64,000 nucleotides of DNA, taken from contig JAPPMB010000047.1 in NCBI GenBank assembly GCA_028819255.1, forward strand, positions 9,039-73,038. The letters run 5' to 3'. The translations under genes and the position numbers were made by a program. The notes beneath the pieces are model-generated. The model did no database searches. It was not told the DNA's origin and saw only the letters and a program-made list of their open reading frames with translations. Below are positions 18,234-58,142 of the stretch, one piece after another (within the stretch, counting starts at the first letter, position 1; the number at the start of each line of letters is the position of its first letter). Source of the stretch: Bryobacterales bacterium (GTDB lineage: Bacteria; Acidobacteriota; Terriglobia; Bryobacterales; UBA6623).

Positions 18234-19913
18234 TCATCGATTCCAGCTCTCATTGAGATAGAATCTCAGAAGTGCTGGTGCCATCAGGGTATTGACCTGC
18301 TCATTAGGGGATACCAGATCGTTTTTGCCAAAAGCGACTGATGCTCGAAATATTTCTGGCGTGATATACCGCAACTGGCTTTGGTCGACAGCGAACTCAT
18401 CCAAGTGTCCCACTTTTTTTCGGACTTCACTATCGTGTTGGCCAGAATTCCATGCGAGAATCCATCCCCAGTCGCCGAAACTCGGCACATTATCATGGTA
18501 TGGAAGAGCCTCATATCCAGCGCTGACGATCGTTCTCAAGATACAAAGAAACGATTCCTTGGCGTGGTATGGCGACGTCGACTGAACAGCCAAGACACCT
18601 TTCCGTTCCAAGAGTCGATGCAACTTGAAATAAAACTCCCGACTATAGAGCTTCACCAGCTCGACCGAGTTCGGATCCGGCAGATCCACTATGACGACAT
18701 CGTACCTTCCCTGTAGGTGAGCGAGCATCTTGTCCGCATCAACCGTATACACATGGACTAGAGCGGCTTGCTCGACAGTATCATTCGGATCCAATCCGAC
18801 GGATGTTGCACGCCCATAAAGTGGTCGAATCTGCGGATCTTCGGTGATTCCTGAAGCCGCCTCTGCAGACACACGCGCGTCGTCAAAGGCCGCATTGTTC
18901 AATTCCGTCATGATGTCATCCTGTGATGCGAACTCGATCATCCCCGGGTCGATATCGACCAGAGTCACCTCCACAGTGTCGTTGTATCTCAAGACTTCCC
19001 TGAGTGCCAGACCGTCCCCACCACCAAGAATCAGCACTCTCCTGCGGTTGTTTGCCAGCGTCATGGCTGGATGGACCAGAAGCTCATGATAAACGTGCTC
19101 GTCAAGACTCGAGAATTGAAGGTTGCCATTGATGTAAAGCCGGTATTCCGTCGGGGCTGTTCGGGCAGTCATCACGATGTGCTGGTACCTTGTCGTTTGT
19201 GAGTGTACGATTGGCTCGTTGTAGAATCTCTGTTCAAGCAGGTCGTTCCAAGTCCGGTTCTGAGAGTATCCGTGTCCAAGACCGAAGGCAATCAATCCGA
19301 TTGCGGCGCGCTGCACCAATCTACGCGAAGCCAATCCATGGTACGAGAAATAGCCGTAGGTGACAACTGCGACGGCGAAATTGACCCCAGCCACCAAGAA
19401 ACTGATCTCCGTCAAAGGAAGATACTTCAGCAAGACGTACACCCAGATCACGGCACCGATAAATGCACCAACATAATCTGTACTAAATATGGAAGCGATG
19501 TTTGACTTTAGTTGTGGAACGAATTGTTTATTCAATCGAAGAATAAGTGGGATCTCCAGTCCAATCAAGAATCCAATTGTCAAGACAAATAGGTACTGAA
19601 CTAGAATAAAGTGTACCTCCATGTAAGCATAGGATGCGTATACTGCGATCGGAGCAAATCCACCGAGGATCGCCAGACTGATTTCAACAAGCAAGAATTT
19701 CTCGATCAAGCCTCGGTCACTGATCCTGCTTTGCAAGACACTGGCAAGTCCCATCATGAGCATCATGAGCGAAATAGTGACTGAAAACTGCTCAATGCTA
19801 TTGCCAAGCACAAACGTGGCGACCGTGCTCAGAATGCACTCAAATATGAATCCGCTTGCTCCGGTGAGGAACATCGAGCAAGCCAGCAGTGTCGTGGCAA
19901 CTCTGGGTCGCAT
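18234..19913 (-). CDS. Membrane-fused spermidine synthase-like protein
   Basis: A 559-residue protein with an N-terminal membrane domain of about seven helices (residues 8-215) and a C-terminal polyamine aminopropyltransferase domain. The S-adenosyl-type binding motif LILGGGDG (about 294-301), LVDIDPGMIEFA and the catalytic-loop VDLPDPNS followed by LYSREFYFKLHRLL are intact. Soluble SpeE makes spermidine from putrescine; membrane-fused forms may act on membrane-associated substrates. The ATG at 19913 was chosen because the membrane domain begins directly after it; the longer open frame overlaps the divergent amine oxidase gene. Base composition is far more AT-rich than that of all neighbours. 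It belongs functionally to the TelA/DUF350 cluster to its right. Confidence 0.82.
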   Translation of the reverse strand: MRPRVATTLLACSMFLTGASGFIFECILSTVATFVLGNSIEQFSVTISLMMLMMGLASVLQSRISDRGLIEKFLLVEISLAILGGFAPIAVYASYAYMEVHFILVQYLFVLTIGFLIGLEIPLILRLNKQFVPQLKSNIASIFSTDYVGAFIGAVIWVYVLLKYLPLTEISFLVAGVNFAVAVVTYGYFSYHGLASRRLVQRAAIGLIAFGLGHGYSQNRTWNDLLEQRFYNEPIVHSQTTRYQHIVMTARTAPTEYRLYINGNLQFSSLDEHVYHELLVHPAMTLANNRRRVLILGGGDGLALREVLRYNDTVEVTLVDIDPGMIEFASQDDIMTELNNAAFDDARVSAEAASGITEDPQIRPLYGRATSVGLDPNDTVEQAALVHVYTVDADKMLAHLQGRYDVVIVDLPDPNSVELVKLYSREFYFKLHRLLERKGVLAVQSTSPYHAKESFLCILRTIVSAGYEALPYHDNVPSFGDWGWILAWNSGQHDSEVRKKVGHLDEFAVDQSQLRYITPEIFRASVAFGKNDLVSPNEQVNTLMAPALLRFYLNESWNR

Positions 19914-20002
19914 TTCTTGTTGTGCTGTCAGGGTTCCAAGTGTCGAAGACACAAAGAACGCCCACCTTTCGGCCCAGTTCACTTGCAAGTCGAAACGTAC
20001 GA
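19914..20002. promoter_or_regulatory. Divergent promoter region with short palindrome
   Basis: The 89 bases between the divergent starts of the spermidine-synthase-like and amine oxidase genes must contain both promoters if these starts are right. A GTGTC-GAA-GACAC palindrome at 19940-19952 is a possible operator. No consensus -35/-10 pair stands out. Confidence 0.3.
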
Positions 20003-21661
20003 ATGACCGTGAGCGAACCCGTGATTTGCGGATTTGGGCACGATGGCCCATCCTATCACGAGGCCTTGGGATCAACTGCGCTAGCATGTGGCTTGGCGGG
20101 CAAGCTGACTCGTCGGAGCGCTCTTCAGGCAGTGGCGGCCGGCGCCGGCATCACGGCGGGCACGACTGCGTTTCTCTTCCGCAAGCCGCGCCCGGTGGCT
20201 GGCCGCTACGTCGACCGCAGCCATGCGGTCGGCCACGCGATTCGGGACGGTCGGCCGGTGCCCGCGACTGGTGCTCGGTCAAGAGTGCCGGTGGCCATCG
20301 TCGGAGGTGGGATCGCCGGACTCTCGGCCGCCTGGAGGATGAGGCGGCTCGGATTCGACGATTTCGTCGTGCTGGAAATGGAGGACTCGCCGGGCGGCAA
20401 TTCCCGCTCCGGCGGCAACGAGCACACTGAGTATCCATGGGGTGCGCACTACGTGCCGGTCCCTGACCGGCGGATTCCGCTTGTGGAGGAGTTGTTCACC
20501 GAACTGGGCGTGCTGCGGGACGGAAAGTGGGATTCCAGCCACGTCTGCCGGGAGCCTCTCGGGCGACTATTTCTGCGGGGCGAATGGGTACCGGACATCG
20601 AGCCGGGCGAGGAGTCATCGCCGTCCGAGCGGGAGCAGTTCGACCGCTTCTGGGACCGGATGGACTACTTTCGCCACGGCGGCGGATTCACCATTCCGAT
20701 TCGCGGAGGCCGCCGGGCCGGCGAGCTCGACTGGATTTCGATGAAGAGCTGGATGATCGAGCAGGGGTTCTTCAACGCCAGGCTCCGCTGGTACGTCGAC
20801 TACGCCTGCCGAGACGACTATGGCGGTTCGTACGGGCAGACCTCGGCGTGGGCGGGGATCCACTACTTTGCCGCCAGGGCGGAAGACGATACCGCACTGC
20901 TGACATGGCCTGCGGGCAACGGCTGGATCGTGAAGCGACTCGCGACCGAGCTTTCCCCGTGGCTCCGTAAGGGAACACCCGTACACCGGATCGCGGAGGC
21001 CGACCGGCACATTGAGGTGGTGACTGAGAGAGCCACCTACGAGTGCGACGCTGTCGTGTTTGCGGCCCCTGCATTCCTCGCGCCGTTTCTAATGCCGGGC
21101 TTGCGGGACCGGCTTCCGTCGATGAGCGAATTCGACTACTCGCCGTGGTACACGGCGAACCTCGTGATCGACCGCCTTCCGCGCGAACACGGCACCTCCC
21201 CGGCTTGGGAAAACGTCATCTACGACTCCCCCGGACTGGGCTATGTCGTCGCTACGCACCAGACGACCGGCGGGTCCGTCGCGCCGACGGTGTGGACCTA
21301 TTACCGCGCGATGTCCGGCCAGACGCCGCAAGCCGCGCGACATGCCCTGCTCAACACCAGTTGGTCTGACCGGAAGGAGGAAATCCTCGCGGACCTTGAG
21401 CGAGCCCATCCGGACATTCGGGACTGTGTGCAGAGGCTGGACATCATGCGACTTGGCCATGCGATGATCCGGCCCGCTCCGGGCTTCATCTCGTCCCATG
21501 CAAGGGATAGGCTGGCCACGATGGAAGGACCCGTCCAGTTCGCGAACTCAGACCTGAGCGGAATCTCGATCTTCGAGGAGGCCCAGTATCGTGGCGTGCG
21601 GGCCGCCGAGCGGGTCCTTTCGAGGCTTGGATATCGAAACCTCGACTACGCGGACGATTGA
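20003..21661 (+). CDS. Tat-exported FAD-dependent amine oxidase-like protein
   Basis: A 552-residue flavoprotein of the amine oxidase/protoporphyrinogen-oxidase-like superfamily. A twin-arginine-type segment (TRRSALQAVAAGAGITAG) precedes the dinucleotide-binding motif VAIVGGGIAGLSAAWRM, with the adenine-binding Glu in VVLEMEDSPGGNSRSG. A C-terminal FAD-contact region lies in FANSDLSGISIFEEAQYRGVRAAE. Next to a polyamine aminopropyltransferase-like gene, a polyamine or modified amine is a plausible substrate, but this is inference. Starts further upstream would overlap the divergent neighbour; the ATG at 20003 is preferred. It converges with the DUF350 gene (15-base gap). Confidence 0.85.
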   Translation: MTVSEPVICGFGHDGPSYHEALGSTALACGLAGKLTRRSALQAVAAGAGITAGTTAFLFRKPRPVAGRYVDRSHAVGHAIRDGRPVPATGARSRVPVAIVGGGIAGLSAAWRMRRLGFDDFVVLEMEDSPGGNSRSGGNEHTEYPWGAHYVPVPDRRIPLVEELFTELGVLRDGKWDSSHVCREPLGRLFLRGEWVPDIEPGEESSPSEREQFDRFWDRMDYFRHGGGFTIPIRGGRRAGELDWISMKSWMIEQGFFNARLRWYVDYACRDDYGGSYGQTSAWAGIHYFAARAEDDTALLTWPAGNGWIVKRLATELSPWLRKGTPVHRIAEADRHIEVVTERATYECDAVVFAAPAFLAPFLMPGLRDRLPSMSEFDYSPWYTANLVIDRLPREHGTSPAWENVIYDSPGLGYVVATHQTTGGSVAPTVWTYYRAMSGQTPQAARHALLNTSWSDRKEEILADLERAHPDIRDCVQRLDIMRLGHAMIRPAPGFISSHARDRLATMEGPVQFANSDLSGISIFEEAQYRGVRAAERVLSRLGYRNLDYADD

Positions 21662-21676
21662 CGGCGAGATCCAGGC

Positions 21677-22591
21677 TTACGCGACCAGGGATCCGATCAT
21701 GATTGCCAGCGCAATCTGAGCACACACGGTCACCGAAGAGGCAGCCACGTTGCGGTCCCTCTCGACCTCGATCTTGAGCGTTGTGTTCGGAAGGAACGCC
21801 TTGTCGATCAGCCGTTGGAACGCTACCAGCAGGACCATGCCCGCGAGGCCGCTCACGGCGAATCCGGTGATGCCCTCCGTCCACCCCTCGAACGGCCCTG
21901 AAACGGCAAAGCTGAGAACGATCCCCAACGAGATCAGGGTTCCGGACAAAATCACACCGGCCGCAGTGTTTCCGTCCCTGATCTCTCCCATGCAGTCGAA
22001 GGGTGTCGCCCATTCATAAAGGAAGGCAAACGCGATCAGCGCGACCTGTCCCATCGCGAAAAAGGCGACCGATGTCTCCCATCCACCACCCTCGCCGTGG
22101 AAGGATCCGTACGCAATCAGGCCGGTGGCCACGAGAATGCCGAATTCCGCGAACCCGACGGCCAGATTTCCCTCCAGCAGTTCCTTCGCGTTCTGCACGT
22201 GCCCAAGGACGACGCGTTCGGAGAGGAATTGAGCCACGAAGAAGAAGATCAGCAGGACTGCGCAGTAGATCAGGATCTCCCTGGTGTCCATCAGGACGGC
22301 ATCCAGACCCTGAGAGAATCGCGCGACCCCGTCGGCCACCACGCCGGCCAGACCGAGGCCGAATCCGATGCCCAGCCCGCAGCGCCTCAGTGCCACTGCG
22401 AGATTGCTCTGTTCCTCGATCTGGTAGTCGACAGTCCGTTCACGGGCGTCCGTCACGCCCGCGCTGCGCAGCCCCGACCGGAAGAACCAGTCGCTCGCTA
22501 TCTTTGCGATGACGAGGACCAGGAGGACGAGGAACGTGTCCGCAAGCCCCTGGATGAGCGTTTCGAGAATATCAATCGCCACTTGGTCCAC
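21677..22591 (-). CDS. Tandem DUF350 membrane protein
   Basis: A 304-residue integral membrane protein built of two DUF350 units (about residues 1-150 and 155-304). Each has about four helices; the second ends with the family-type VERDRNVAASSV motif, and the first with the degenerate DYQIEEQSNLAVALRR. E. coli YjfL is a single-unit relative encoded in a stress operon with a PspA-like protein and a glutathionylspermidine-synthase-like protein. The molecular function is unknown, probably in membrane integrity. Translation starts at GTG 22591, 2 bases after the lipoprotein gene. It is the last gene of the six-gene minus-strand operon starting at 27281. Confidence 0.85.
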   Translation of the reverse strand: MDQVAIDILETLIQGLADTFLVLLVLVIAKIASDWFFRSGLRSAGVTDARERTVDYQIEEQSNLAVALRRCGLGIGFGLGLAGVVADGVARFSQGLDAVLMDTREILIYCAVLLIFFFVAQFLSERVVLGHVQNAKELLEGNLAVGFAEFGILVATGLIAYGSFHGEGGGWETSVAFFAMGQVALIAFAFLYEWATPFDCMGEIRDGNTAAGVILSGTLISLGIVLSFAVSGPFEGWTEGITGFAVSGLAGMVLLVAFQRLIDKAFLPNTTLKIEVERDRNVAASSVTVCAQIALAIMIGSLVA

Positions 22592-22593
22592 CC

Positions 22594-24204
22594 TTACTTC
22601 CCGCTAGACCCGAAGAACGTCGACCGAGTGCTCGGACCGGCTCCCCGAACGGTGGTGGGGGGCCGGCGGAATCCCCCGCCCCGAGCGAATGTCGAGCCCT
22701 GCATTCTGGGCGAGGTTCGCGTGGCCTGACTGTTCGTGCCCCATTTCGGAGCGGCCGAGCTTCCACCGTAGAACGGCCGGCGACCGCGGTAGCCGCCGCT
22801 CCACGTATCCCATTCACTCCTCTCGTAGCTCCTTCTGGACCCGAACAGCGTGGAATAGAAGAGGTACGGCGCTACCCATGTCCAGACGGAGCCGCCGGAG
22901 CCGTCGGAAGTCCAGCGACCGTAGTGGGGATTGCCCACATACGCCATGCCGGGGGGAGCCGCTTGCGTGAGCTTCTCGGAGTCAAAGGCTCCGTAGGGCT
23001 TCGACTCGACATCCATTCCCAGGTTGTTGATATTTGCGTTGTAGAAGTCCGCTGTGACCTCTGTCCAGTCCGACTCCTGGGTCTCCCCGTTTTCCTGCCG
23101 CAGGTACTTGTGAAAGAAGTGGGCCTCGGCCCCCTGCACCCAGTACTCGGCCCGATCGTGGCTGGGAGGCCACCGGGCATAGAGGTCGAGACCGAGCAGG
23201 TTCCATTGGGCGCGATCCGTTCCGGAGAGCATGATCGGCTCTCTGTTGAACAACCTGGACCTGTAGGACCGCACGAGCGACCCTCGAATGGCTGTGAGAT
23301 GCTCGAACGTGGCCACGCTCACATTCCTCACGCGATAGTCGAGGAATGCGGTCTGCGGATAGTCCCGCGAGTCGTCCCAGCTTTCCCGCCGCACAGTCAG
23401 CTCATACTCGACCTTCATGTCCATCAGCGTCAGGGAGTAGCTTCGGTCCAGCTCCGCCAGCTTGGCGCTGACTTCCGGTGCCCGTTTCAAGTAGTCCGCA
23501 GAGATCGCACCCGCATTCCGGCAGGAGTCCCCGAGCACGGCCAAGTCGAATTCGTCTCCGGACCTGCGCTTGCGCAACTCTGCCTGCGCCTCGACTAGCA
23601 GCCCTCCCGCGGAGGCAACCAGCTCGGAGAGCGGCCCAGCGAGATCGTCGATCTCATCCGCTCTCCCCGCGTGGTCTTGACGCACCTGCTGGATCTTCTC
23701 GGCCAATTGGGGCCGTAGTTCGTTCATCGCGCCGACCGAGGACCCGCACTCGGCGACCATCTCGTCGGCGCGTTGGGCCACTTCGTTGAGAAAGTCGCGC
23801 CGGTCGGCCCACCGCCGGGCCGACTCGTGAGCGCCCGCAAGCAGCGGATTGATCTTCCCTAGCGCTTCGGCCAGATCGCCGGCCGTGCCAGGCTCATCCC
23901 GCTCGACGAGGGGAAGGACCGACGACTCGTAGATGTCCTCGGCAGATCTGACCTTGGCCCGGGCCGCCTCGATGTGCTGGGACCATTCCTCCCGGTCGGC
24001 GTATTCCTCGAGTGCCGCGAATTCGGACGATCCGCGAAACTCCTCGTACTGGTCTCCAAGGCTCTCGACTCTCCGGGACTCCTCGCCGATTCGGCTGTCC
24101 GCCAGCCGCGCCCTCTCCACGAGATCCCGCGGCAACCCCATGCATCCAGCCAGGACCAATGCGACGATGCCCGCGCTCCATCGGAATCCGCTCGTGTAAG
24201 CCAT
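22594..24204 (-). CDS. Cluster-associated lipoprotein with coiled-coil region
   Basis: A predicted lipoprotein of 536 residues. The ATG at 24204 gives a signal peptide ending in the lipobox LAGC (Cys21), and GGGAGGG lies about 10 bases upstream. A second ATG at 24225 adds 7 residues. Residues about 25-210 are charged and helical, probably coiled-coil. The C-terminal 120 residues contain YGRWTSDGSGGSVWTWVAPYLF, YERSEWDTW and an arginine/glycine/serine-rich tail. This tail resembles exported proteins found beside DUF350/DUF4178 genes (DUF4247- or DUF1190-like), but I cannot assign the family firmly. Its location in the DUF2617-DUF350 operon suggests an envelope role. Confidence 0.7.
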   Translation of the reverse strand: MAYTSGFRWSAGIVALVLAGCMGLPRDLVERARLADSRIGEESRRVESLGDQYEEFRGSSEFAALEEYADREEWSQHIEAARAKVRSAEDIYESSVLPLVERDEPGTAGDLAEALGKINPLLAGAHESARRWADRRDFLNEVAQRADEMVAECGSSVGAMNELRPQLAEKIQQVRQDHAGRADEIDDLAGPLSELVASAGGLLVEAQAELRKRRSGDEFDLAVLGDSCRNAGAISADYLKRAPEVSAKLAELDRSYSLTLMDMKVEYELTVRRESWDDSRDYPQTAFLDYRVRNVSVATFEHLTAIRGSLVRSYRSRLFNREPIMLSGTDRAQWNLLGLDLYARWPPSHDRAEYWVQGAEAHFFHKYLRQENGETQESDWTEVTADFYNANINNLGMDVESKPYGAFDSEKLTQAAPPGMAYVGNPHYGRWTSDGSGGSVWTWVAPYLFYSTLFGSRRSYERSEWDTWSGGYRGRRPFYGGSSAAPKWGTNSQATRTSPRMQGSTFARGGGFRRPPTTVRGAGPSTRSTFFGSSGK

Positions 24205-24228
24205 GACTGGTACTGACCCTCCCATGCC

Positions 24229-24825
24229 CTAGACGGCAACGGCGAACGAGCGTTCGGCTGCCTTCTCTCTGCTCGGCAAGACGACGCTGCTCTCGCTCAG
24301 TGCGACAAGCCCCTCCGACGGATACGAGTGCGCCGTACGGGCGGTTACGCCCCCGGGACGGGCAGCCGCCCAGACCAGCGTCTCAGCCGTCCAAGGCCCG
24401 TTCGAACCGGAAGGAAACCGGTGGGCAAGCCCGACTTCGGTGGATGACCGATCTGCACGGCGGATCATTCTGCGAAGTTGCCGTAGCGTACCACGAACTC
24501 CTTCCAGGTCCATCACTTCCGCGTCGAAGCGGTACCGCACTGCATCGTGAGCGGCGTACTCGACCGCCGAGTCGCCGGGCTGCCACCACGCCACCGGCTG
24601 AGCGTTTTCCGGTGCGGCACAGGCCAGCAGCTCAGTCAGGGCCAGCGATCCGCTGCGAACCTCCATCACGTGGCTGGCCCCAATCACCGAGGCCCGGATC
24701 TCCAGGTCGCCGCGCGCCGCCCGTCCGCGCAGGAGCACGGTGGCGTGGGGACAGGTCACGCTCCCGGCGTAGAGCCGCAGCCGCAGGGCGTGCGCGGAGA
24801 GATCCTTGAACGCAACCGGCGTCAT
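24229..24825 (-). CDS. DUF2617 family protein
   Basis: A 198-residue protein matching the DUF2617 pattern as I know it: an N-terminal LYAGSVTCPHATVLLRG strand region, GASHVMEV in the middle, and a C-terminal block ending TARTAHSYPSEGLVALSES. No catalytic residues are known for this family. Start ATG 24825 overlaps the DUF4178 stop by four bases (ATGA), a tight translational coupling. In actinobacterial genomes DUF2617 genes often sit with DUF4178, DUF350 and polyamine aminopropyltransferase genes, and the same company is kept here. Confidence 0.78.
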   Translation of the reverse strand: MTPVAFKDLSAHALRLRLYAGSVTCPHATVLLRGRAARGDLEIRASVIGASHVMEVRSGSLALTELLACAAPENAQPVAWWQPGDSAVEYAAHDAVRYRFDAEVMDLEGVRGTLRQLRRMIRRADRSSTEVGLAHRFPSGSNGPWTAETLVWAAARPGGVTARTAHSYPSEGLVALSESSVVLPSREKAAERSFAVAV

Positions 24826-25430
24826 GCTCCTCCCTTGACGATGACTTCGATCGCCCTGGGATCGAGATAGGTGCTCAGAATGACGTTGTGCTCGTAGCCC
24901 GAGTCCTCGTCGCCCCATTCCTCGACGCCCACGAACTCCCGCTTGTCCGGACTCGAGAACAAGTACTGGTGAAACGGCGTCCCCTTGGCGCCGCCGTCGC
25001 GGAAGAAAACGACTCGCGAGTCGTCGTGGTAGCGGTATCTCGCGCCCTTATATCGGACCTCTCCCGAACCCGCCTGCGAAATCTCCCAAAGGTGCTCCTT
25101 GCCCTTGAGACCGACCTGCCTGAAGCTGAGCTTCTCTCGGGAGACGTAGACCGAGACCTCGTCCTCCTTCTCCCACTCCAGGTACTGCGTCGTGCCGTCG
25201 TTCAGCCGGTACATCGCCAGTTCCGGCCAACGCGCTCCCTCGCGCTCGTACGTGCTGATGGTCTTGACCTCGTAGAGGTTGCCCTCGAATCGGAGGAAAC
25301 CGCCCAAGCCAACATCCTCGATGGAAACGCGATGACGCTCGGCCGCCGGCATGGGCGCGGTGATGCGTCGAGCCGCAGCGAACTGCTCGGCGAACCGGGC
25401 GCGCTGGTCGGGCTGCAGGAGCGAAGCCAT
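24822..25430 (-). CDS. DUF4178 domain protein
   Basis: A 202-residue soluble protein with the DUF4178 pattern: an N-terminal beta-rich unit with GGFLRFEGNLYEVKTISTY, YLEWEKEDEVSVYVSREKLSF, and a C-terminal repeat-like part with RYRYHDDSRVVFF. Function is unknown. The family recurs beside DUF350, TelA and polyamine aminopropyltransferase genes. The ATG at 25430 is preferred; a TTG three codons upstream is also possible. It lies 24 bases after the TelA stop and overlaps the DUF2617 start. Confidence 0.8.
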   Translation of the reverse strand: MASLLQPDQRARFAEQFAAARRITAPMPAAERHRVSIEDVGLGGFLRFEGNLYEVKTISTYEREGARWPELAMYRLNDGTTQYLEWEKEDEVSVYVSREKLSFRQVGLKGKEHLWEISQAGSGEVRYKGARYRYHDDSRVVFFRDGGAKGTPFHQYLFSSPDKREFVGVEEWGDEDSGYEHNVILSTYLDPRAIEVIVKGGA

Positions 25431-25454
25431 CTCAGTCAAATCGCAGGCGGCTCG

Positions 25455-26636
25455 CTATCCGCCGGACAGCTCCAATGCACCAGGAATTTCGGACGCAGGC
25501 AGCTCCTTGGCTGCGCGGAGCGCCTCGACCTTCGGTTCCAGGGCCGCCGACATCTTGGTGAGCTCGGAGATCCCGGCACGGGCCTTTTCGGTCCCTGCCA
25601 TCCGGATCTGCTCCATCTCGTCCATGGCGCCGACCAGCGACTCGTAGGCGTTCCTGACACGGTCGAGGGCGATGACGGGGTTGTTCTGCATCTCTCCGAT
25701 CTCCCTGGTCTGGCGCCCGATGGCCGCCGCGTTGGCCTCCAGCATGGCGGCGGTGCTGTCCTGCACCTGCTTTACAGCGGTGGCGATCTGCTTCTGGTTG
25801 GCCAGCGCGGCCTGGATCGCAAGGCCGACGGTCAAGAGACTCTGCGTGACCATCACCGTACGGTCGATCTGCTCGCACAGGGAGTCGTTGTTCTGCAGCG
25901 TCATGTCTATGGACGAGAAGAACTGGAGGTTGACCTGCTCCATGGTGCGCAGGTCCTGTACGCGCATCGACACCTTGTGAGCCATCGTCTGCAGCTTCTG
26001 GCGCTGCACGGTCTCAGTCTCTTCAACCATGCTGTCCTCGATCCGCTGCATCAGGAGCTCGCCCACATACGCGCTTTGCTGGACACCCTGCTGGGCCACA
26101 TGAACCTGCTCATAGAGTTGCTCCAGTTCGGTGCTGTCCTGGAGGAGCTTGTCCTTGCCATGGCGCAGCCCGGCCATGATCTGGTCGATCTGCGTCTGCA
26201 CTGACTCGTACTTCACCGCGATGCGCTTGAGGATCTTGCCGACTCCCGGCGTCCTGCCCAGCAGTTTGGCGATGCCGCTCGGTTGGCCCAAGACCTGCGG
26301 ATTGATCTCGTCCATCGTGTGCCGCAATGCGATCAGGGTGCGGGGGATCTCGGCGCCCTCGCCATCGAGTTGCGAGAGCATGGTGCCCACGCGGGTCTTG
26401 AGCAGCCCGATCTCACGCGACGCCTTCTGCTGCTCGCGCACGCCCATCGCGCTCACCTGGCGACCGAGCTTGCGATCTCCGGGGTCGGCAAGCACCGCCA
26501 AGGCCAGCTGGTCGGCCTTTTGAGCGAGTTGCGTCTGGCCATGTTCGTCCAGCCCCCTCGGTGCCTTCGCGACCAGACCGGACGACGCACCTGCAGTCGC
26601 CGGACCGTTGGATTGCGCGGAATCAGAAGTGCTCAT
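25455..26636 (-). CDS. telA: TelA-family toxic anion resistance protein
   Basis: A 393-residue, almost entirely helical protein of the TelA/KlaA/YaaN family. It was first linked to tellurite resistance and is now seen as part of wider membrane and envelope stress systems. Typical features are a poorly ordered first 40 residues, long amphipathic helices (IDQIMAGLRHGKDKLLQDSTELEQLY) and a well-conserved C-terminal half (NQKQIATAVKQVQDSTAAML). A strong ribosome binding site (GGAGGG) precedes ATG 26636. It is 18 bases downstream of an XpaC-like gene, the same order as xpaC-yaaN in Bacillus. Confidence 0.9.
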   Translation of the reverse strand: MSTSDSAQSNGPATAGASSGLVAKAPRGLDEHGQTQLAQKADQLALAVLADPGDRKLGRQVSAMGVREQQKASREIGLLKTRVGTMLSQLDGEGAEIPRTLIALRHTMDEINPQVLGQPSGIAKLLGRTPGVGKILKRIAVKYESVQTQIDQIMAGLRHGKDKLLQDSTELEQLYEQVHVAQQGVQQSAYVGELLMQRIEDSMVEETETVQRQKLQTMAHKVSMRVQDLRTMEQVNLQFFSSIDMTLQNNDSLCEQIDRTVMVTQSLLTVGLAIQAALANQKQIATAVKQVQDSTAAMLEANAAAIGRQTREIGEMQNNPVIALDRVRNAYESLVGAMDEMEQIRMAGTEKARAGISELTKMSAALEPKVEALRAAKELPASEIPGALELSGG

Positions 26637-26654
26637 GCCGTTTCCCTCCAGACC

Positions 26655-27281
26655 CTATAGACTCTGTACAAAGCGAGCCCGCAGAAACGCGGCCTTTGCC
26701 TTAAAGTCGCCCATCTTCTCGCCGCGCACCAGATCGGCTACGTTGTCGAGTTCCGACTCGAGGCCATCCAAGCTGCGGAGGATCTCCGCACGACATCCCT
26801 CGCGATCCTTCGGCGAAAGCGCCAGATAGGGACCAGTCACCTTGCGCAGATACGACTTTGCCATTTGATTCACGGTCCAGGTGAGGTCGTGCTGCGGGTG
26901 ACGCTCGTTGAGGTCCTCCAGCAGCGCGCGAAGCTTGTCGATGATGCCCTCGACGCGGGCCAGCACGTCTGGGGCGACCGACTGCTCCCGAATGTCGATA
27001 TTGAGATCCACGAGACCGCGGAGCATGCCCACCAGTTCAGCGCGGGGATCACGCTTCCGGATCTCGGGCTGTGACTTCCGCTCTCGATAGCGAAGGACGG
27101 CCAGCGTCACGAGTGAGGCTACCGCAGCGCTCACGGCAGCCACCACAAGGACCCGGAACAGCGCGAAGACTACGACTGCGGCGACGAGGCCCGCCCCGAT
27201 CAGCCCAACCCAGCGAAATGCCGACTTGCTCAAAGTGCCCGTCCAGCCCGTCGCTCTCAGTATACGTGGCCAACGGTGCAT
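26655..27281 (-). CDS. XpaC-like membrane-anchored protein
   Basis: A 208-residue protein with two adjacent hydrophobic segments near the N-terminus (about residues 24-62) and a helical cytoplasmic domain (about 75-208) containing LVGMLRGLVDLNIDIREQ and YLRKVTGPYLALSPKDR. The arrangement and the neighbouring telA match the XpaC family, named after hydrolysis of 5-bromo-4-chloroindolyl phosphate but of unclear function. The assignment rests on topology and context more than on strong motifs. The ATG at 27281 is directly preceded by an in-frame GTG; GGGGAAG lies upstream. It is the first gene of the operon running to 21677. Confidence 0.65.
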   Translation of the reverse strand: MHRWPRILRATGWTGTLSKSAFRWVGLIGAGLVAAVVVFALFRVLVVAAVSAAVASLVTLAVLRYRERKSQPEIRKRDPRAELVGMLRGLVDLNIDIREQSVAPDVLARVEGIIDKLRALLEDLNERHPQHDLTWTVNQMAKSYLRKVTGPYLALSPKDREGCRAEILRSLDGLESELDNVADLVRGEKMGDFKAKAAFLRARFVQSL

Positions 27282-27688
27282 CACCTTCCCCGCGCGGACT
27301 CGCGCCCCGGCAAGAGCCTGGACTGGCGCGGAACCGCGGCTGATCGCGCGCAGCGGCTTCCCGCTCCGGTGGCCGGAGGCTCTCCGGACACTGCATACAC
27401 CTCACTCTGCCGCATCGGTCTTGCCCACACCGGCCAGACCCCCGTTTGCCTTGTTTGCAAGCCGGGCCCCAGACACTCCCGTTTCTTCCGTCGGAACCGT
27501 CGAGCAGCGGCCCGTCCCCGCAATGCCTGCGCCCCGCGCAGGCCCAAGGCCGGAGACCGCCCCCGATGCTCTCAGGCCGTTCATCCGGGCGCGCCCGCTC
27601 GCCGGTTGGCACGGCATTTCGGCCTCTACTACGCTATGACGGTACGCGACGGGCTCGGCGGCGAGCCGGTCTGTCGGCGGAGCGAATC
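27282..27688. other. Divergent intergenic region
   Basis: About 400 bases between the start of the XpaC-TelA operon (-) and a sulfatase (+). It should hold promoters for both directions. No clear consensus element or conserved small frame was found; open frames here are extensions of the sulfatase frame or proline/arginine-rich shadows. Confidence 0.4.
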
Positions 27689-29467
27689 GTGAGACCCCTC
27701 CTTGCCGCCGTCATCCTATGGATCGTCCCGCCCGGAGCCCACGCCCGGGAAGCCTGCGAGGCGGCGCCGGCGCCTACGTTCGAAGGTGTCATCGGCCGCA
27801 CGGCCCGGGATTCCACACCTTCCCCTCTAGAACCCGTGCGACCGGCACCGGGCAGTCCGAATGTCGTGTACATCGTCCTCGACGACACCGGCTTCGGAGA
27901 CCTGGGCTGCTACGGGGCCTCTGTTTCGACGCCCAGCATCGATTCTCTCGCGAAAGCCGGCCTGCTGTTCAACAACTTCCAGTCGAAGGCGGTCTGCTCT
28001 CCGACCAGGGCTTCGCTGCTGACGGGACGCAACGCCCAGGCGGTCGGGATGAAGGAGCTGCCGGGGGGAGACCAAGGGTACCCCCACACGCGCGGACGGG
28101 TTCCTGCGTCGGCGGCGAACATCGCACAGATCCTGAGCCGCGGCGGCTACAGCACATTCGCAGTCGGGAAGTGGCACCTTGTGCCTCGCGAAGACATGAC
28201 GCCTGCGGGCGACCGCACCCACTGGCCGCTTCAGAAGGGCTTCGACCGCTTCCACGGATTCCTCTCGGGCTGGACCGATCAGTATCGGCCGGATCTCGTG
28301 GTGGACAACCACGCCGTTGCCCCGCCCGAACGGACGGGATACCACTTTTCTGAAGACATCGTGGATCAGGCGATCGCGATGATCGAGGGCAAGCTGGAGG
28401 CGGACACGGAGAAGCCCTTCTTCCTTTACGTGGCATTCGGAGCCACGCACGCGCCGATCCAGGTGCCCAAGCGCTACATCGAGAAGTACAGGGGCGCATT
28501 TGACGAAGGGTGGGACGCAGTCCGCGAGCGGCGCTATCGCAGGCAATTGAAACTCGGCGTCATTCCGACCGGGGCCAAGCTTCCGCCGCGCAACCCGGGC
28601 GACCCGGCCTGGAGCGACCTTGGCGGGACAGAGCGCAGGGTCTACGCGCGCTTCATGGAAGCCTACGCCGGGTTCACCGAGCACACGGACGGTCAAATCG
28701 GCCGCCTGATCGGGTTCCTGAAGGAGAGCGGGCAGTTCGACAACACGATGGTCGTCCTGATCTCGGACAATGGCGGCGCTCCGGAAGCCGGCGTGAAGGG
28801 GAACTTCGCGCGTTCGTACGGCGACCCCACCACGGTCGAGGAAATGCACGAGCGGCTCGATGATCTGGGCGGGCCCGGCACGCAGCCGCTGTATCCGCGG
28901 CCTTGGGCAATGGCCTCGAGCGCGCCGTTCAAATACTACAAACTGTGGCCATTCAACGGCGGCGTACGCACGCCGATGATCGTCTCGTGGCCCGAGGGGA
29001 TCCGCGAGACCGGGTTGCGGGAGCAATTCGTCGATGTCATTGACATCACGCCGACGGTGCTCGACTACCTCGGCGTCAAGGAACCGGAGGCCTTCGACGG
29101 CGTCTGCCAGATGCCCATGCACGGCAAGAGCCTGCGGAATGTGTTCGACGACCCGGCCGCCCCCGCTCCCCGCGACACGCAGTTCTTCGAGTTGTGGGGC
29201 AGCCGCGGAATCTACCACCAGGGCTGGAAGGCGGTGGCGTTCCATACTCCCGGAACCGACTTCGAGTCCGACCACTGGGAGCTCTACAACGTGAAAGCGG
29301 ACTTTACTGAAACGGCCGACCTGGCCAGCCGAAGGCCCGAGAAGCTAAAGGAACTGCAGGACCTGTGGTGGGACGAGGCGGAGAAGTACGGTGCGCTGCC
29401 CCAGCTCGAAGCCATCACCATGCGGCAACGGACGTACGATCAGATCCTGACGGCCCCTGCGCCTTAG
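27689..29467 (+). CDS. Secreted arylsulfatase, formylglycine type
   Basis: A 592-residue sulfatase that hydrolyses sulfate esters. The start is a GTG at 27689, followed directly by a hydrophobic signal segment ending GAHAR. The long open frame upstream (to 27446) is arginine- and proline-rich and not homologous. The motif AVCSPTRASLLTGR holds Cys103, to be converted to formylglycine by a maturase not present in this window. Metal ligands appear in VYIVLDDTGFGDLG and LISDNGG, with further active-site residues in GKWHL and ATHAPIQVP. At nearly 600 residues it resembles large PAS/AslA-like sulfatases. Substrate unknown. Confidence 0.9.
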   Translation: MRPLLAAVILWIVPPGAHAREACEAAPAPTFEGVIGRTARDSTPSPLEPVRPAPGSPNVVYIVLDDTGFGDLGCYGASVSTPSIDSLAKAGLLFNNFQSKAVCSPTRASLLTGRNAQAVGMKELPGGDQGYPHTRGRVPASAANIAQILSRGGYSTFAVGKWHLVPREDMTPAGDRTHWPLQKGFDRFHGFLSGWTDQYRPDLVVDNHAVAPPERTGYHFSEDIVDQAIAMIEGKLEADTEKPFFLYVAFGATHAPIQVPKRYIEKYRGAFDEGWDAVRERRYRRQLKLGVIPTGAKLPPRNPGDPAWSDLGGTERRVYARFMEAYAGFTEHTDGQIGRLIGFLKESGQFDNTMVVLISDNGGAPEAGVKGNFARSYGDPTTVEEMHERLDDLGGPGTQPLYPRPWAMASSAPFKYYKLWPFNGGVRTPMIVSWPEGIRETGLREQFVDVIDITPTVLDYLGVKEPEAFDGVCQMPMHGKSLRNVFDDPAAPAPRDTQFFELWGSRGIYHQGWKAVAFHTPGTDFESDHWELYNVKADFTETADLASRRPEKLKELQDLWWDEAEKYGALPQLEAITMRQRTYDQILTAPAP

Positions 29468-45109: not shown

Positions 45110-46861
45110 TCACCGCTCGAATCGGTAGTCGAACACGCACGACTCCCCGGCCATCTCTCGGAACCACAAGGTGGCGCTGGCCCCGAGCGAGTCGGTGAGG
45201 CGCACCGCTTCGTTCAGCGCGAACCGCACGGGCTGGATCTCACCGTCGTTGATCGCGACATTGTGCGCGTAGAGATACGTCCGATCCAGCCTGTCAAGTG
45301 TTGCGTCCAGCTGCCCCTGCATCCCCGGCAAATGCCCGGTGCGCCGGGCAAAGATCCGCGAACCCCCGTGCGATGTCGGCCGCATGCGGACTTCCAGCGG
45401 CCCGTCGGGGTGATAGCTATGCGTCACGTGGGCTGTGAATCCCTCCGCGGCGCACAGCACGGTCATCGGCAGGCTGGCGTAGAGCACGAAATCAGCGCGC
45501 CCGAATGAATCGGTCCGCGCCTCGCGATAGGTCCTGTTTGGATACAGCATCAACACGTGCACGCCCGGCAGCAGCTCGCCCGTGTCACCGTCGACAACCA
45601 CCACGCGAGCACCAACCCCTTCCGCCACGGGATCGCGGGCCGCCGGCAGAACGACCTTCAGCTCCCGTTCGCCAACCAGCTCGAAGATCGGGTGCTGCCC
45701 GGCGAGATGGAACGTCTCGTCCTGGATCACGGCAATCCCTTCCCCGCGTCGCTCGATGAAATACCGCCGCCCACCCGACCCGGGCACGTCCCCGACGTCG
45801 CACTGTCCGAGCCGCGACGCGAGCAGTTCGTTGCGCGTGAACTGGCTGGTGCGCAGGTCATCGGTGGTCATGGAATTGCAGAGGCCGCCGGGCGAGTACA
45901 GTTCCAGTCGGTCGTCGAACATGAACAGGCGTATCCGCGATCCGGAAACCGCATAGTCCCGATGCACCACCGCGTTGACCACAGCCTCGAAGACCGCACG
46001 GTCGCTGAATTGTGGGATGTCCGTCCGTGCAGGATCCTTGTAGGCGGCAACGCGCCGGTTGCGGACCACAAAATGCATCGCTTCACGGATCTGTTCATCG
46101 AGCGGGCCGGTGATATCGCGGGCGTCCACTTGACGAGCGGCGTCCGGCCGGTCCCCGCGATAGCACACGGCCTGAATCCAGGCGTTCGGCAGCCACTCGC
46201 GAGGATCCTCCGCTGCCAGAAGAACGCCGCCCACGGTCGCCCGCAGCGTGCCATGCGAATCGACCTTCACAAACCGCAGCTTCGCCAAGGCTACTGCGGG
46301 TGCATCGTCCGTGCGCGAACTCACATACTGCCGCCACAGATCCCCTCGCAGGCTCCTCACGCCGGTGCCTAGTACCACCTGCGTGTCGGTTGACAAGGCA
46401 TCGGACTGCCCGCGCACATCCGACAGCCGCCGAATCTCCGCCGAATCCATCTGGCGCTTGGTATCTCCCCGGCGGCGGAAGTAGCCGCCGGGCGACCGGT
46501 GAACTGTCACGCCCGCGGCAATCTCGACAACGATTGCACCGCCGCTTGCCGGCTGCGGCGCAGCCACTCGGAACACGCTGAAGTTCAGGGGCGGCTTGAT
46601 GCTGTCCATGCAGATCTCGCCCACCAAGTTCACAAGCACGTCGAGTTGCGATGGATCGAGTGACTGTGGACGCCGGTCGTCCGTCACACCCAAAACCACT
46701 CGTCCGCCGCGGGCGTTGCCGAATGCCGCCAATTCGTCGGCGAGCGAGTCCCGGCGAGGCGCTGAGACCTTCCTGCCCCGGAACTGGACGGCCTTCAACT
46801 CCAGTTCCGAGTCCTCGCCCAGCGTAACCTGCCGCCACAGGCGTGAGGGTTCGATAGTCAT
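45110..46861 (-). CDS. Schlafen AlbA_2 domain ATP-binding protein
   Basis: A 583-residue protein. Residues about 15-140 form an AlbA_2 (Schlafen-like, DUF3375-type annotation) domain: ELELKAVQF, SLADELAAFGNARGGRVVLGV, and YFRRRGDTKRQM. Residues about 290-370 resemble an ATP-binding HATPase_c_4 module (FEAVVNAVVHRDYAVSG, LELYSPGGLCN). A C-terminal beta-rich part (GARVVVVDGDTGELLPGVHVLML) looks like a carboxypeptidase-regulatory-type domain, an unusual addition. Such proteins are often annotated as transcriptional regulators or putative helicases and are frequent in accessory regions. The ATG at 46861 overlaps the stop of the small upstream gene as TGATG. Confidence 0.82.
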   Translation of the reverse strand: MTIEPSRLWRQVTLGEDSELELKAVQFRGRKVSAPRRDSLADELAAFGNARGGRVVLGVTDDRRPQSLDPSQLDVLVNLVGEICMDSIKPPLNFSVFRVAAPQPASGGAIVVEIAAGVTVHRSPGGYFRRRGDTKRQMDSAEIRRLSDVRGQSDALSTDTQVVLGTGVRSLRGDLWRQYVSSRTDDAPAVALAKLRFVKVDSHGTLRATVGGVLLAAEDPREWLPNAWIQAVCYRGDRPDAARQVDARDITGPLDEQIREAMHFVVRNRRVAAYKDPARTDIPQFSDRAVFEAVVNAVVHRDYAVSGSRIRLFMFDDRLELYSPGGLCNSMTTDDLRTSQFTRNELLASRLGQCDVGDVPGSGGRRYFIERRGEGIAVIQDETFHLAGQHPIFELVGERELKVVLPAARDPVAEGVGARVVVVDGDTGELLPGVHVLMLYPNRTYREARTDSFGRADFVLYASLPMTVLCAAEGFTAHVTHSYHPDGPLEVRMRPTSHGGSRIFARRTGHLPGMQGQLDATLDRLDRTYLYAHNVAINDGEIQPVRFALNEAVRLTDSLGASATLWFREMAGESCVFDYRFER

Positions 46862-47196
46862 CACACTGGTTCCAGAGGCGTTCGAAGTGCCTCAATTCTG
46901 CCAACTCTGGCTTTCGGGATTCCGACTGTGGATTTGTGCCGTCCAACCATCTCCTGGATTCCTCCCTGCAAGTCTAGCGACGGCGTCCCAAGGCAGGAAC
47001 ACCTGCGCCTTGTGATCCCGATCGATGAGAACCCTGTGAGCCGTCCGACCACTCCGACAAGCCTCCCGCCGCTGCGGAGGCGCGACGGCGCAAGAATGAG
47101 CTTAGGGCGCAGCAGGTCGCAAAGGGCAGTTGGAGTGCCGGGCTCGAACCAGTTCTTCAGCGTCCGCGCCGACACACCCCTCACTTCGCCAATCAT
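46861..47196 (-). CDS. Small unknown protein coupled to the AlbA_2 gene
   Basis: A 111-residue frame whose stop overlaps the downstream AlbA_2 start (TGATG), which is the main argument that it is real. The N-terminus (VRGVSARTLKNWFEPGTPTAL) could form a helix-turn-helix. The rest is basic with a hydrophobic patch (RLVGVVGRLTGFSSIGI) and ends with PLEPV. No family recognised. It could be a small regulator or a decayed fragment. The start codon (ATG 47196) has no clear ribosome binding site. Confidence 0.35.
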   Translation of the reverse strand: MIGEVRGVSARTLKNWFEPGTPTALCDLLRPKLILAPSRLRSGGRLVGVVGRLTGFSSIGITRRRCSCLGTPSLDLQGGIQEMVGRHKSTVGIPKARVGRIEALRTPLEPV

Positions 47197-48257: not shown

Positions 48258-49823
48258 ATGACCCAAACTGTTGTCGTTGCCCAGACGCTTGCAGCGCCGA
48301 TCATGCTGCCCATTCTGGTCGTTTTCCTTTTTCTGGGCGTGCTGCTCTTTGTCGTCCGCCAGTACAGGCGCTGCCCTTCCAACCGGGTGCTCGTCGTCTA
48401 CGGAAAGGTCGCGGGAAGACAGGCGGCTCGGTGCATCCATGGTGGCGGCGTGTTCGTTGTGCCGCTCTTCCAGGACTACCAGTACCTGTCCCTGGAGCCG
48501 GTCACGATCGACATCGAGCTCACCGGAGCTCTCTCGAAGAAGAACATTCGAGTGAACGTGCCATCCACGTTCACAGTCGGCGTTTCCACGGAGCCCACGA
48601 TCATGAACAACGCAGCCGAGCGCCTGCTCGGCTTGCGCGAGCCCGACGTTGCAGCCCAGGCGCGCGACATCATCCTCGGCCAGATGCGCCTCGTCATCGC
48701 GACGCTTTCCATCGAGGAGATCAACCAAGATCGGGAGAAGTTTCTTGACCTTGTGAACAAGTTCTGCGCCGGGGAGCTGCTCAAGATCGGGCTCGAAGTC
48801 ATCAATGTCAACATCCGGGACATCACGGATGAGTCCGGGTACATCGACGCGATCGGCAAGAACGCCGCCGCGGAGGCCATCCAGAAGGCCAAGGTCGAGG
48901 TCGCGGAGCAGGTCAAGCAGGGCGCGATCGGTGAGTCCGTCGCAAACCGCGCCAAGGAGGTCGAGGTTGCCAACCAGACCGCCGCATCGACGATTGGCCG
49001 CAAGGAAGCGGAACGTGAGCGGCGCATCAGCGTGGCCAAGCTGGAAGCCGAGGGACTGGCGGCCGAGGCCCTCTCACGCCGCGAGCAGGACGTGGCCATC
49101 GCCGAACAGGTTGCACTCTCCGAGGAGGGCAAGAAACAGGCCGAATCCGCCCAGCGGGTCCGCATCGCCACCTTGGAAGCCGAGGCGGTCAAGGGCGAGA
49201 ACGAATCGAGAGCGAGCATCGCTGCCTACAACGCAACCCTCGACGAGCGTCGTGCGGACGCTCGGCGCCGCGGCGAGGTGGCGAAGGCTCAGGCCGCTCG
49301 TGACGTGCTGATTGCCGAGAGGCAGGAGGAGCTGGCCCGCCTCGAGAAGGAGCAGATCAGCCTCCAGCAGGTCGAGAAGGAAAAGATCGAGATCGAGGCT
49401 GAGGCGGAAGCCGAAAGGCTTCGCCGGATCGCCAAGGGCAAGGCAGATGCGGTTCTGGCCGAGTACAGCGCTGAGGCCGACGGCGTGAGGAAGGTCATCG
49501 AGGCGAAGGCGGAGGGCTATCGCCGGCTTCTGGCCGTCTGTGCGGAGCGGCCGGATCTCGCCGCGACGCTTCTTGTCGTTGAGCAGCTGCCGGAACTGGT
49601 GGCGGAGCAGGTCAAGGCGGTTCAGAACCTCAAGATCGACAAGGTCACGGTCTGGGACAGCGGAGCAAACGGCGGAGGGCGCGTCGAGGGATCCGGCGGA
49701 GCGACGGCGGACTTCATGCGCGGACTGGTCACCTCGTTGCCGCCGTTGCACGAGCTGGCCAAGCAGGCCGGAATCGACCTCCCGAACATCCTCGGAAAGG
49801 TGAACTCAAAAGACAGCTCCTAG
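48258..49823 (+). CDS. Flotillin (YqiK-type)
   Basis: A 521-residue flotillin. An N-terminal membrane segment (about 12-34) is followed by a PHB/SPFH domain (about 45-225, with NRVLVVYGKVAGRQAARCIHGGG and NVNIRDITDESGYID). A long Ala/Glu-rich coiled coil (about 200-430) contains many AEAERLRR- or VAKAQAAR-type repeats. The C-terminus ends with LPPLHELAKQAGIDLPNILG, typical of YqiK/FloT. Flotillins scaffold membrane microdomains. A clear ribosome binding site (AAGGGAG) precedes ATG 48258. It forms an operon with the upstream NfeD-like gene. Confidence 0.93.
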   Translation: MTQTVVVAQTLAAPIMLPILVVFLFLGVLLFVVRQYRRCPSNRVLVVYGKVAGRQAARCIHGGGVFVVPLFQDYQYLSLEPVTIDIELTGALSKKNIRVNVPSTFTVGVSTEPTIMNNAAERLLGLREPDVAAQARDIILGQMRLVIATLSIEEINQDREKFLDLVNKFCAGELLKIGLEVINVNIRDITDESGYIDAIGKNAAAEAIQKAKVEVAEQVKQGAIGESVANRAKEVEVANQTAASTIGRKEAERERRISVAKLEAEGLAAEALSRREQDVAIAEQVALSEEGKKQAESAQRVRIATLEAEAVKGENESRASIAAYNATLDERRADARRRGEVAKAQAARDVLIAERQEELARLEKEQISLQQVEKEKIEIEAEAEAERLRRIAKGKADAVLAEYSAEADGVRKVIEAKAEGYRRLLAVCAERPDLAATLLVVEQLPELVAEQVKAVQNLKIDKVTVWDSGANGGGRVEGSGGATADFMRGLVTSLPPLHELAKQAGIDLPNILGKVNSKDSS

Positions 49824-56666: not shown

Positions 56667-58142
56667 ATGAGATTCCTCGTCTCCTTGACGGCGGCAGTGT
56701 GTTTGTCGGGTTGCGGCCAAGACCCCTCCGAGACGCCTCCGTCCCCGCCAAACGTGATCATCATGATGGCGGACGACCTCGGGTGGGGAGATGTCGGCGT
56801 CAATGGAGGCGAGGTCATCCGGACGCCGAACATCGACGCCCTCGCGGAGCAAGGCGTCCGTCTGACCGACGGCTACGTGTCAGCCGCCGTCTGTAGCCCG
56901 TCTCGCGCCGGACTGTATACCGGGAGGCACCAGCAGCGTCACGGGTTCGAATACAACATCGCGGGCCGCGACACGAAAACGGGGATGTCGACCGAGGAGG
57001 CGACGATCGCCGACATGATGCGGAAAGCCGGATACGCGACCGGGCTCATCGGCAAGTGGCATCTGGGAAAACAGAAGCCGCATCACCCATTGAGCCGCGG
57101 CTTCGACGAGTACTACGGAATGCTGGCCGGTGGCTCAATTTATATCGATTCGACGAAGGAAGGCGTCGAGTCGTGGCCAAGGAGAAGCGCTCCCACGGCG
57201 CGGACCGAGGCCAACGCCATCTACGACGGGTTCGAGCCGGTCGAGGTCGAGGAGTACATCACAGACGTGTTCCGCGACAAGGCGGTCGACTTTATCGAGC
57301 GGCACAAGGATGAGCGGTTCTTCCTGATGCTGACTCCGAACGCGCCGCATACGCCGCTCCAGGCGACCAGGGAGTATCTGGACAGGTACCGACACATCGA
57401 GGACGACAGCGGGCGCATCTATGCGGCAATGGTTGCGGCGATCGACGACTATGTGGGGGCGGTCACGGCAAAGCTCCGCGAGACCGGCTTGGAGGAAAAC
57501 ACGCTCTTTGTCTTCCTCTCCGACAACGGTTGCGCCGGATACGTCGTGGAGAGCTGCTCAAACGGGCCATTGCGCGGCAACAAGCGCTACTACTGGGAGG
57601 GCGGCATACGGATTCCGTTCATCGCCAAGTGGCCGGCGGGCCTGCCTCAAGGCACGGATTACAGCCAGCCCGTGATCTCGCTTGACCTGTACGCGACAGT
57701 TGCCGGCGCGATTGGGTCCGATGCGACGGCCCAAGACAGTGTGAACCTCCTCCCGCACCTGCGCGGTGAGTCTGCGGCGGCCCCGCATGAGTACCTGTTT
57801 TGGCGGGCAAAGCCGAACATCGCGGTTCGCAAGGGGAACTGGAAGCTCTGGAAGGTCAACAAGACCGATCTCGGGTTCGAAGCCTTGACGGACCGTGCCG
57901 CTAGCCGGCTGCCGATGAAGGCATGGCCGCAGGATTCTCCTCACGGCCAGATGACGCTTCTGTACGATCTGTCAGCCGATGTCGGGGAGCTGACCAACGT
58001 GGCCGAAGAAAACCCGGAAGTCGTGGCAAAGCTGGAGGCCGCCCTGAGCGAATGGAGCGAATCGATGGGAGATCCGCTCTGGCCCGCGTTCCGGTCCACG
58101 CTGGACGCAATCGACGGGCAAACCGTGCATCTCTTCTTCTGA
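56667..58142 (+). CDS. Lipoprotein sulfatase, formylglycine type
   Basis: A 491-residue sulfatase. The N-terminus has a lipoprotein signal (VCLSGCGQD, lipidated Cys near residue 16). The activation motif AVCSPSRAGLYTGR has Cys76 as formylglycine precursor. Metal- and substrate-site segments are NVIIMMADDLGWGDVGVNGG, LIGKWHLGKQ, PNAPHTPLQA and FLSDNGCAGY. It is shorter than, and in a different subgroup from, the sulfatase at 27689-29467. Substrate unknown; membrane attachment suggests use of sulfated glycans outside the cytoplasm. Divergent from the formate dehydrogenase operon with 78 bases between starts. Confidence 0.9.
   Translation: MRFLVSLTAAVCLSGCGQDPSETPPSPPNVIIMMADDLGWGDVGVNGGEVIRTPNIDALAEQGVRLTDGYVSAAVCSPSRAGLYTGRHQQRHGFEYNIAGRDTKTGMSTEEATIADMMRKAGYATGLIGKWHLGKQKPHHPLSRGFDEYYGMLAGGSIYIDSTKEGVESWPRRSAPTARTEANAIYDGFEPVEVEEYITDVFRDKAVDFIERHKDERFFLMLTPNAPHTPLQATREYLDRYRHIEDDSGRIYAAMVAAIDDYVGAVTAKLRETGLEENTLFVFLSDNGCAGYVVESCSNGPLRGNKRYYWEGGIRIPFIAKWPAGLPQGTDYSQPVISLDLYATVAGAIGSDATAQDSVNLLPHLRGESAAAPHEYLFWRAKPNIAVRKGNWKLWKVNKTDLGFEALTDRAASRLPMKAWPQDSPHGQMTLLYDLSADVGELTNVAEENPEVVAKLEAALSEWSESMGDPLWPAFRSTLDAIDGQTVHLFF

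Follow-up and report, generated by a model that had tools for sequence, protein, structure and literature searches.

A polyamine envelope-stress operon of Bryobacterales with TelA as its probable hub in place of PspA, and DUF2617 as a candidate AdoMet decarboxylase

Here we describe an eight-gene polyamine cluster from a Bryobacterales genome (6.7 Mb, 98% complete; closest named relatives are Bryobacterales/Acidobacteria MAGs). The set is a real, conserved system. We read it as a relative of the PspA-linked polyamine operons of envelope stress, built around TelA as hub: an anchor protein and TelA positionally replace CesT and PspA. As a whole, the locus is best explained, with slightly better than even confidence, as a TelA-hub polyamine operon in which DUF2617 would feed a membrane-fused aminopropyltransferase (TM-SpeE). 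Only tentatively do we put forward the broader combined proposal: that the DUF2617 proteins form a hitherto unrecognised family of AdoMet decarboxylases (Ser and Cys in one half, His in the other, as in the eukaryotic two-domain enzyme) feeding TM-SpeE in Acidobacteriota, haloarchaea and Actinobacteria that have no SpeD, and that TelA is a hub equivalent to PspA in envelope-stress polyamine systems. TelA, whose long-standing annotation says no more than 'toxic anion resistance', would thereby be tied to phage-shock membrane-maintenance systems as a natural PspA replacement.

Gene content and transcription of the locus

The analysed window comprises 64,000 nucleotides of contig JAPPMB010000047.1. 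An earlier note, made from these letters alone, had placed eight neighbouring genes in it; all are present, and Pfam searches bore out the TelA, DUF4178, DUF2617, DUF350, amine oxidase and SpeE families (Table 1). Six of the genes form a tight minus-strand run (21677-27281) in the order anchor-like protein, TelA, DUF4178, DUF2617, lipoprotein and double DUF350. The ATGA-type overlaps and few-base gaps reported for this strand were confirmed at the junctions: DUF4178 and DUF2617 overlap by ATGA, and gaps of a few to ~20 bases separate the others. The claim that all eight genes form a single transcription unit is refuted by the oxidase gene, which lies on the plus strand between the DUF350 and SpeE genes. 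Since it converges on the former and diverges from the latter, the eight genes cannot share one transcript and at least three are needed. The 'tandem DUF350' of the same note does comprise two DUF350 domains, but both lie within one protein with 8 predicted transmembrane (TM) segments. TM-SpeE likely starts at 19913, not at 20087.

Table 1. Genes of the cluster, with positions in the window and the evidence for their assignment
Feature	Coordinates	Strand	Evidence
Anchor-like membrane protein	26655..27281	-	~38-residue hydrophobic stretch, then helical-looking domain
TelA family protein, divergent subfamily, helical	25455..26636	-	PF05816, 178.9 bits (cut-off 30)
DUF4178 protein	24822..25430	-	PF13785, 41.4 bits
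DUF2617 protein	24229..24825	-	PF10936, 70.3 bits
Lipoprotein	22594..24204	-	Lipobox Cys; hhalign 99.9% to PspA-CesT operon lipoproteins
Double DUF350 (YjfL-like) membrane protein, 304 aa	21677..22591	-	PF03994 in two stretches, 126.6 bits; hydropathy
FAD amine oxidase, N-terminal twin-arginine motif, start uncertain	20003..21661	+	PF01593 (Amino_oxidase), 60.8 bits
TM-SpeE (membrane-fused aminopropyltransferase)	18234..19913	-	Spermine_synth, 114.6 bits; NCBIfam PRK03612, 573 bits (cut-off 472)

Recurrence in related genomes

The whole eight-gene arrangement was also found in genomes G008 and G013. G002 and G007 have the six minus-strand genes and the oxidase together; their TM-SpeE lies on a different contig or further along (in G007, ~8 kb beyond the oxidase). 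Of 18 genomes at the family level, the six with DUF4178 were exactly the six with full-length TM-SpeE (Fisher p 5e-5). These families co-occur beyond chance, and the suggestion that the genes form a recurring conserved unit stood: other genomes carry the set too, and it is one of the DUF350/DUF4178/TM-SpeE polyamine systems (PMC11237479). Seven other genomes of the same genus carried neither TelA nor DUF4178.

Within 61 order-level genomes, six TelA genes exceeded the cut-off and five of them lay inside the cluster; the divergent subfamily occurred in this sample only there, directly before DUF4178. Genome-level co-occurrence of TelA and DUF4178 alone was not significant (p 0.09), so the evidence linking the two is their adjacency. 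TelA was present in only 6 of 396 phylum genomes, and the other five have canonical TelA without the cluster genes. Scanning genome contigs with TelA gave matches limited to four known relatives; tblastn searches of plasmids with DUF4178 or acidobacterial DUF2617 gave no match, and neither did viral contigs.

An anchor protein and TelA in the position of CesT and PspA

Ravi et al. (2024, mSystems, PMC11237479) describe in their main text an operon in which a PspA-CesT dyad accompanies TM-SpeE, an 8-TM DUF350 protein, a lipoprotein and DUF4178 (for example AAN56744-AAN56747), as well as variants in which DUF4247/DUF2617 or band-7 replaces the dyad (for example CCP45394/CCP45395). The same text groups DUF350/DUF4178/TM-SpeE polyamine systems with phage-shock (envelope stress) systems and proposes that they monitor polyamines or alter membranes by aminopropylation. 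TelA occurs nowhere in that main text; the supplements may mention it.

In Bryobacterales, we found DUF4178 accompanied by one of three modules. In nine loci the order is CesT-PspA, then DUF4178 and the lipoprotein, in many cases with DUF350 after them. The band-7 module (13 loci) has SpeD, DUF4178 proteins and TM-SpeE as companions, in many cases also the oxidase. The third type, anchor-TelA-DUF4178-DUF2617-lipoprotein-DUF350, was present in five loci. In G017, from the same family as the source genome, DUF2617, TM-SpeE, oxidase, PspA, CesT, a K+ channel, DUF350, lipoprotein and DUF4178 occur together; a K+ channel gene also adjoins the anchor gene in G013.

Compared with the PspA-CesT/Tir operon (the second group of Ravi et al.), our locus has in common a SpeE domain fused to an N-terminal TM domain, the 8-TM DUF350 protein, the lipoprotein and DUF4178, with the same order around DUF4178 in Bryobacterales, but has TelA and a membrane anchor instead of PspA and CesT and adds DUF2617 and the oxidase. 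The source genome has no PspA, and TelA and the anchor stand where the dyad of the published operon would be. PspA was missing from G000, G002, G008 and G013 in a search that matched 9 of 14 control genomes, and G007 carries PspA elsewhere in the genome in addition to its TelA cluster. TelA, which the earlier note had listed together with XpaC as an extra member of the set, is indeed present, but the evidence says that it and the anchor replace PspA and CesT rather than joining them. With the DUF2617/DUF4247 and band-7 variants the locus shares polyamine genes together with DUF350, the lack of PspA-CesT, DUF2617 or band-7, and the oxidase; it differs in having TelA and in lacking SpeD in the cluster and, by PF02675, in the genome. 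The same order is also found outside the phylum: two Alteromonas mediterranea plasmids (pAMCP48-600 and MCP49-600) carry SpeE-SpeD-anchor-like-TelA-DUF4178-lipoprotein-DUF350. This cluster matches ours from anchor to DUF350 and in TM-SpeE, but has SpeD in place of DUF2617 and no oxidase.

TelA and its membrane partner

The TelA protein matched canonical TelA in profile comparison (hhalign 99.1%), and its AlphaFold model is all-helical with a mean pLDDT of 65. Homology to PspA was rejected (profile comparison 0.2%), as was structural likeness: this low-confidence model matched generic helical bundles only, and none of its top 50 hits was PspA/ESCRT-III.

By profile, the anchor protein is not XpaC, although it had been called XpaC-like. 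The source genome has no PF10112 match even at E 10, and hhalign to true XpaC gave 1.9%; for comparison, genuine XpaC genes that adjoin canonical TelA in this phylum reach 89-121 bits. As in the XpaC-TelA pairs (B. subtilis xpaC-yaaN, Listeria lmo1966-lmo1967), a membrane-anchored partner lies upstream of TelA, but here it is not XpaC by profile and the other cluster partners differ. PspM was rejected as well (NF047839, PspM/Rv2743c; 26.9 bits against a cut-off of 80, lost once the protein was split in two). The sub-threshold match was seen in four of five anchor orthologues, and a remote relation to PspM may exist. Two loci with canonical TelA in Acidobacteriota adjoin a solute-binding/vWA protein, and one of them also has a true XpaC.

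Probably the anchor protein tethers TelA to the inner membrane, where the two would form a hub on the cytoplasmic face and TelA would serve as the sub-membrane scaffold that PspA provides elsewhere. According to work cited in PMC12791056, disruption of TelA in Listeria lowered nisin tolerance and, to a lesser degree, tellurite tolerance, which fits an envelope role. A response to toxic anions, as the earlier note suggested, is conceivable too.

DUF2617 alternates with SpeD

Fifteen of the fetched TM-SpeE loci carried DUF2617 only and 17 SpeD only, while none had both and two had neither; after removal of duplicates the counts were ~12/16/0/2. By random draw, zero overlap at these counts would arise about once in a million (91/86,493,225), although the true chance figure is weaker because the loci are related. 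The alternation spans Acidobacteriota, Halobacteria and Proteobacteria. It may fail in Actinobacteria, since the main text of PMC11237479 says that operons of the DUF2617 group encode an AdoMet decarboxylase too. SpeD was present in 12 of 13 band-7-type loci, the exception being L048, which together with L090 makes up the TM-SpeE clusters with neither gene in the fetched stretch.

At the genome level, DUF2617 occurred in exactly 6 of 61 order-level genomes, namely those with TM-SpeE and no SpeD in the cluster. No PF02675 gene was found in G000, G002, G008, G013 and G017 by a search that matched 8 of 14 controls, and G007 has an AdoMet decarboxylase gene elsewhere in the genome, outside the TelA cluster. 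The corresponding PF01536 search is uninformative because it gave no match anywhere, controls included. Eleven of the 14 control genomes have SpeE, and eight of these eleven have SpeD; DUF2617 was found only in C. glutamicum and H. volcanii, which are two of the three controls with SpeE but no SpeD.

In haloarchaea, the 12 plasmid records that carry TM-SpeE are the same 12 that carry DUF2617, and the two genes adjoin. Eight plasmid operons consist of a small protein of unknown function, TM-SpeE, DUF2617 and usually an unknown protein of ~318 aa; neither DUF350 nor DUF4178 is annotated in them. According to a 2016 study (PMC5178350), no sequenced halophile was found to have an AdoMet decarboxylase, which raised the question of how their SpeE proteins obtain decarboxylated AdoMet. 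DUF2617 is a concrete candidate for that source.

DUF2617 motifs resemble the catalytic residues of SpeD

Only G49, S51, H52, E65, C69, H166 and Y168 were invariant in 14 of 14 DUF2617 proteins (G49-x-S51-H52; H166-x-Y168). By sequence, the Ser-His, Cys and His of this set resemble the catalytic residues of SpeD; in the T. maritima protein, the residues marked for processing and catalysis are S63, H68 and C83 (PMC10407285). Haloarchaeal DUF2617 proteins read IGESHY...CSCKP and YETYHTYPEYG, compared with AESH...HTWPE-x-G...CCRP in SpeD. Similar Ser-His, Cys and His-x-aromatic-Pro motifs occur in DUF2617 and SpeD (PF02675; T. maritima 1tlu), and both are encoded next to TM-SpeE, but DUF2617 has its motifs split over two halves, has no PF02675 match and, in Acidobacteriota, has Ala, Cys or Thr where SpeD has Glu before the processed Ser. 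In eukaryotic AdoMetDC, Ser and Cys lie in the first unit and His in the second. The DUF2617 motifs are likewise split between its two halves. The eukaryotic enzyme consists of two fused SpeD-like units, the second without the self-cleavage site, and its similarity to SpeD is almost undetectable (PMC10407285).

Searches of DUF2617 against PF02675 and PF01536 gave no match, PF10936 being the only match of note, and comparison with solved structures yielded no relevant one. Profile comparison with SpeD gave hhalign values of 10-72% depending on the part compared (10-46% at full length). The C part of haloarchaeal DUF2617 reached 71.7% with a score of 29.7, against 14.0 for the best of 60 column shuffles and at most 19.2 for unrelated cluster families; the N part gave no significant result. 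Profile homology between DUF2617 and SpeD is therefore only suggestive, a promising lead that falls short of proof. As a diverged AdoMet decarboxylase, DUF2617 could supply decarboxylated AdoMet in the place of SpeD, a step to which we give just under an even chance. An aminopropylated product would then arise on the inner side of the membrane through DUF2617 and TM-SpeE together.

Membrane and exported components

Homology links the lipoprotein of the TelA version to those of PspA-CesT operons (hhalign 99.9%), and it may correspond to the 'Ctha_1186' domain of Ravi et al. The AlphaFold model comprises a helical domain of high confidence (residues 26-253) and a beta region (256-390), the tail is conserved and rich in Gly, Tyr and Trp, and the fold has no relative among solved structures. 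Lipoprotein and 8-TM DUF350 protein would face outward or span the membrane, and it is about as likely as not that they relay the signal from outside or from the membrane. DUF4178 is a putative cytosolic partner.

In TM-SpeE, comparison with solved relatives indicates that the decarboxylated-AdoMet site and the catalytic Asp are kept (GGGDG, D-x-P-D-P); these motifs and YHE are conserved in 7 of 7 aligned sequences, and the catalytic domain is predicted to be cytoplasmic. The Bryobacterales TelA-hub versions, and only these, have an insertion of ~40 residues that precedes the second half of their SpeE domain. The TM-SpeE gene has a GC content of 0.50 (GC3 0.56), compared with about 0.64 for its neighbours and 0.61-0.68 for the others in the window; the value is low for the G008 gene as well, though not for that of G013, and a past transfer within the genus is possible. 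The twin Arg and an SGISxFEEAQ-type motif are common to the oxidases of all three hub types, and the oxidase is presumably exported via Tat. We regard it as an even call that TM-SpeE uses decarboxylated AdoMet to aminopropylate an amine on the cytoplasmic side while the exported oxidase breaks down polyamines outside. In this way polyamine charge at the membrane would be adjusted when the envelope is under stress.

Alternative explanations

The most serious alternative concerns DUF2617, which could be another enzyme that modifies the product or substrate of TM-SpeE, with decarboxylated AdoMet coming from an unrecognised source or another donor serving instead. This is quite conceivable, if somewhat short of an even chance. 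The main text of PMC11237479 predicts a beta-sandwich enzyme with conserved His, Asp and Glu, the profile match to SpeD does not reach the usual thresholds, and haloarchaeal SpeE proteins are reported without some conserved binding residues (PMC5178350). A different activity sits poorly, however, with the alternation with SpeD across three lineages and with the presence of Ser, Cys and His, as in SpeD, among the few invariant residues.

For TelA, we regard it as unlikely that the gene confers resistance to toxic anions or antimicrobial peptides and accompanies the polyamine genes without standing in for PspA. The Listeria phenotype and the lack of homology to PspA agree with such a passenger, but the subfamily lies in the order sample only inside the cluster, directly before DUF4178 like PspA, its gene order is kept on the Alteromonas plasmids, and the canonical TelA genes of the phylum adjoin true XpaC or vWA/solute-binding genes instead. 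Quite improbable, finally, is a system of the six minus-strand genes only, with oxidase and SpeE as separate neighbours. The strand changes at the oxidase, the SpeE gene departs in GC content from the others in the window, and in G007 it lies well beyond the oxidase; against this, the SpeE and oxidase genes adjoin, and often overlap, in each of the three hub types, and TM-SpeE presence matches that of DUF4178 genome by genome in the family.

Other genes in the window

A flotillin gene (Band_7 plus Flot) lies at 48258-49823, ~21 kb from the cluster, and a protein with Schlafen AlbA_2 and a RecG C-terminal-like ATPase is encoded at 45110-46864. Sulfatase-type genes flank the region at 27446-29467 (recognised by eye) and 56667-58142 (confirmed by Pfam).
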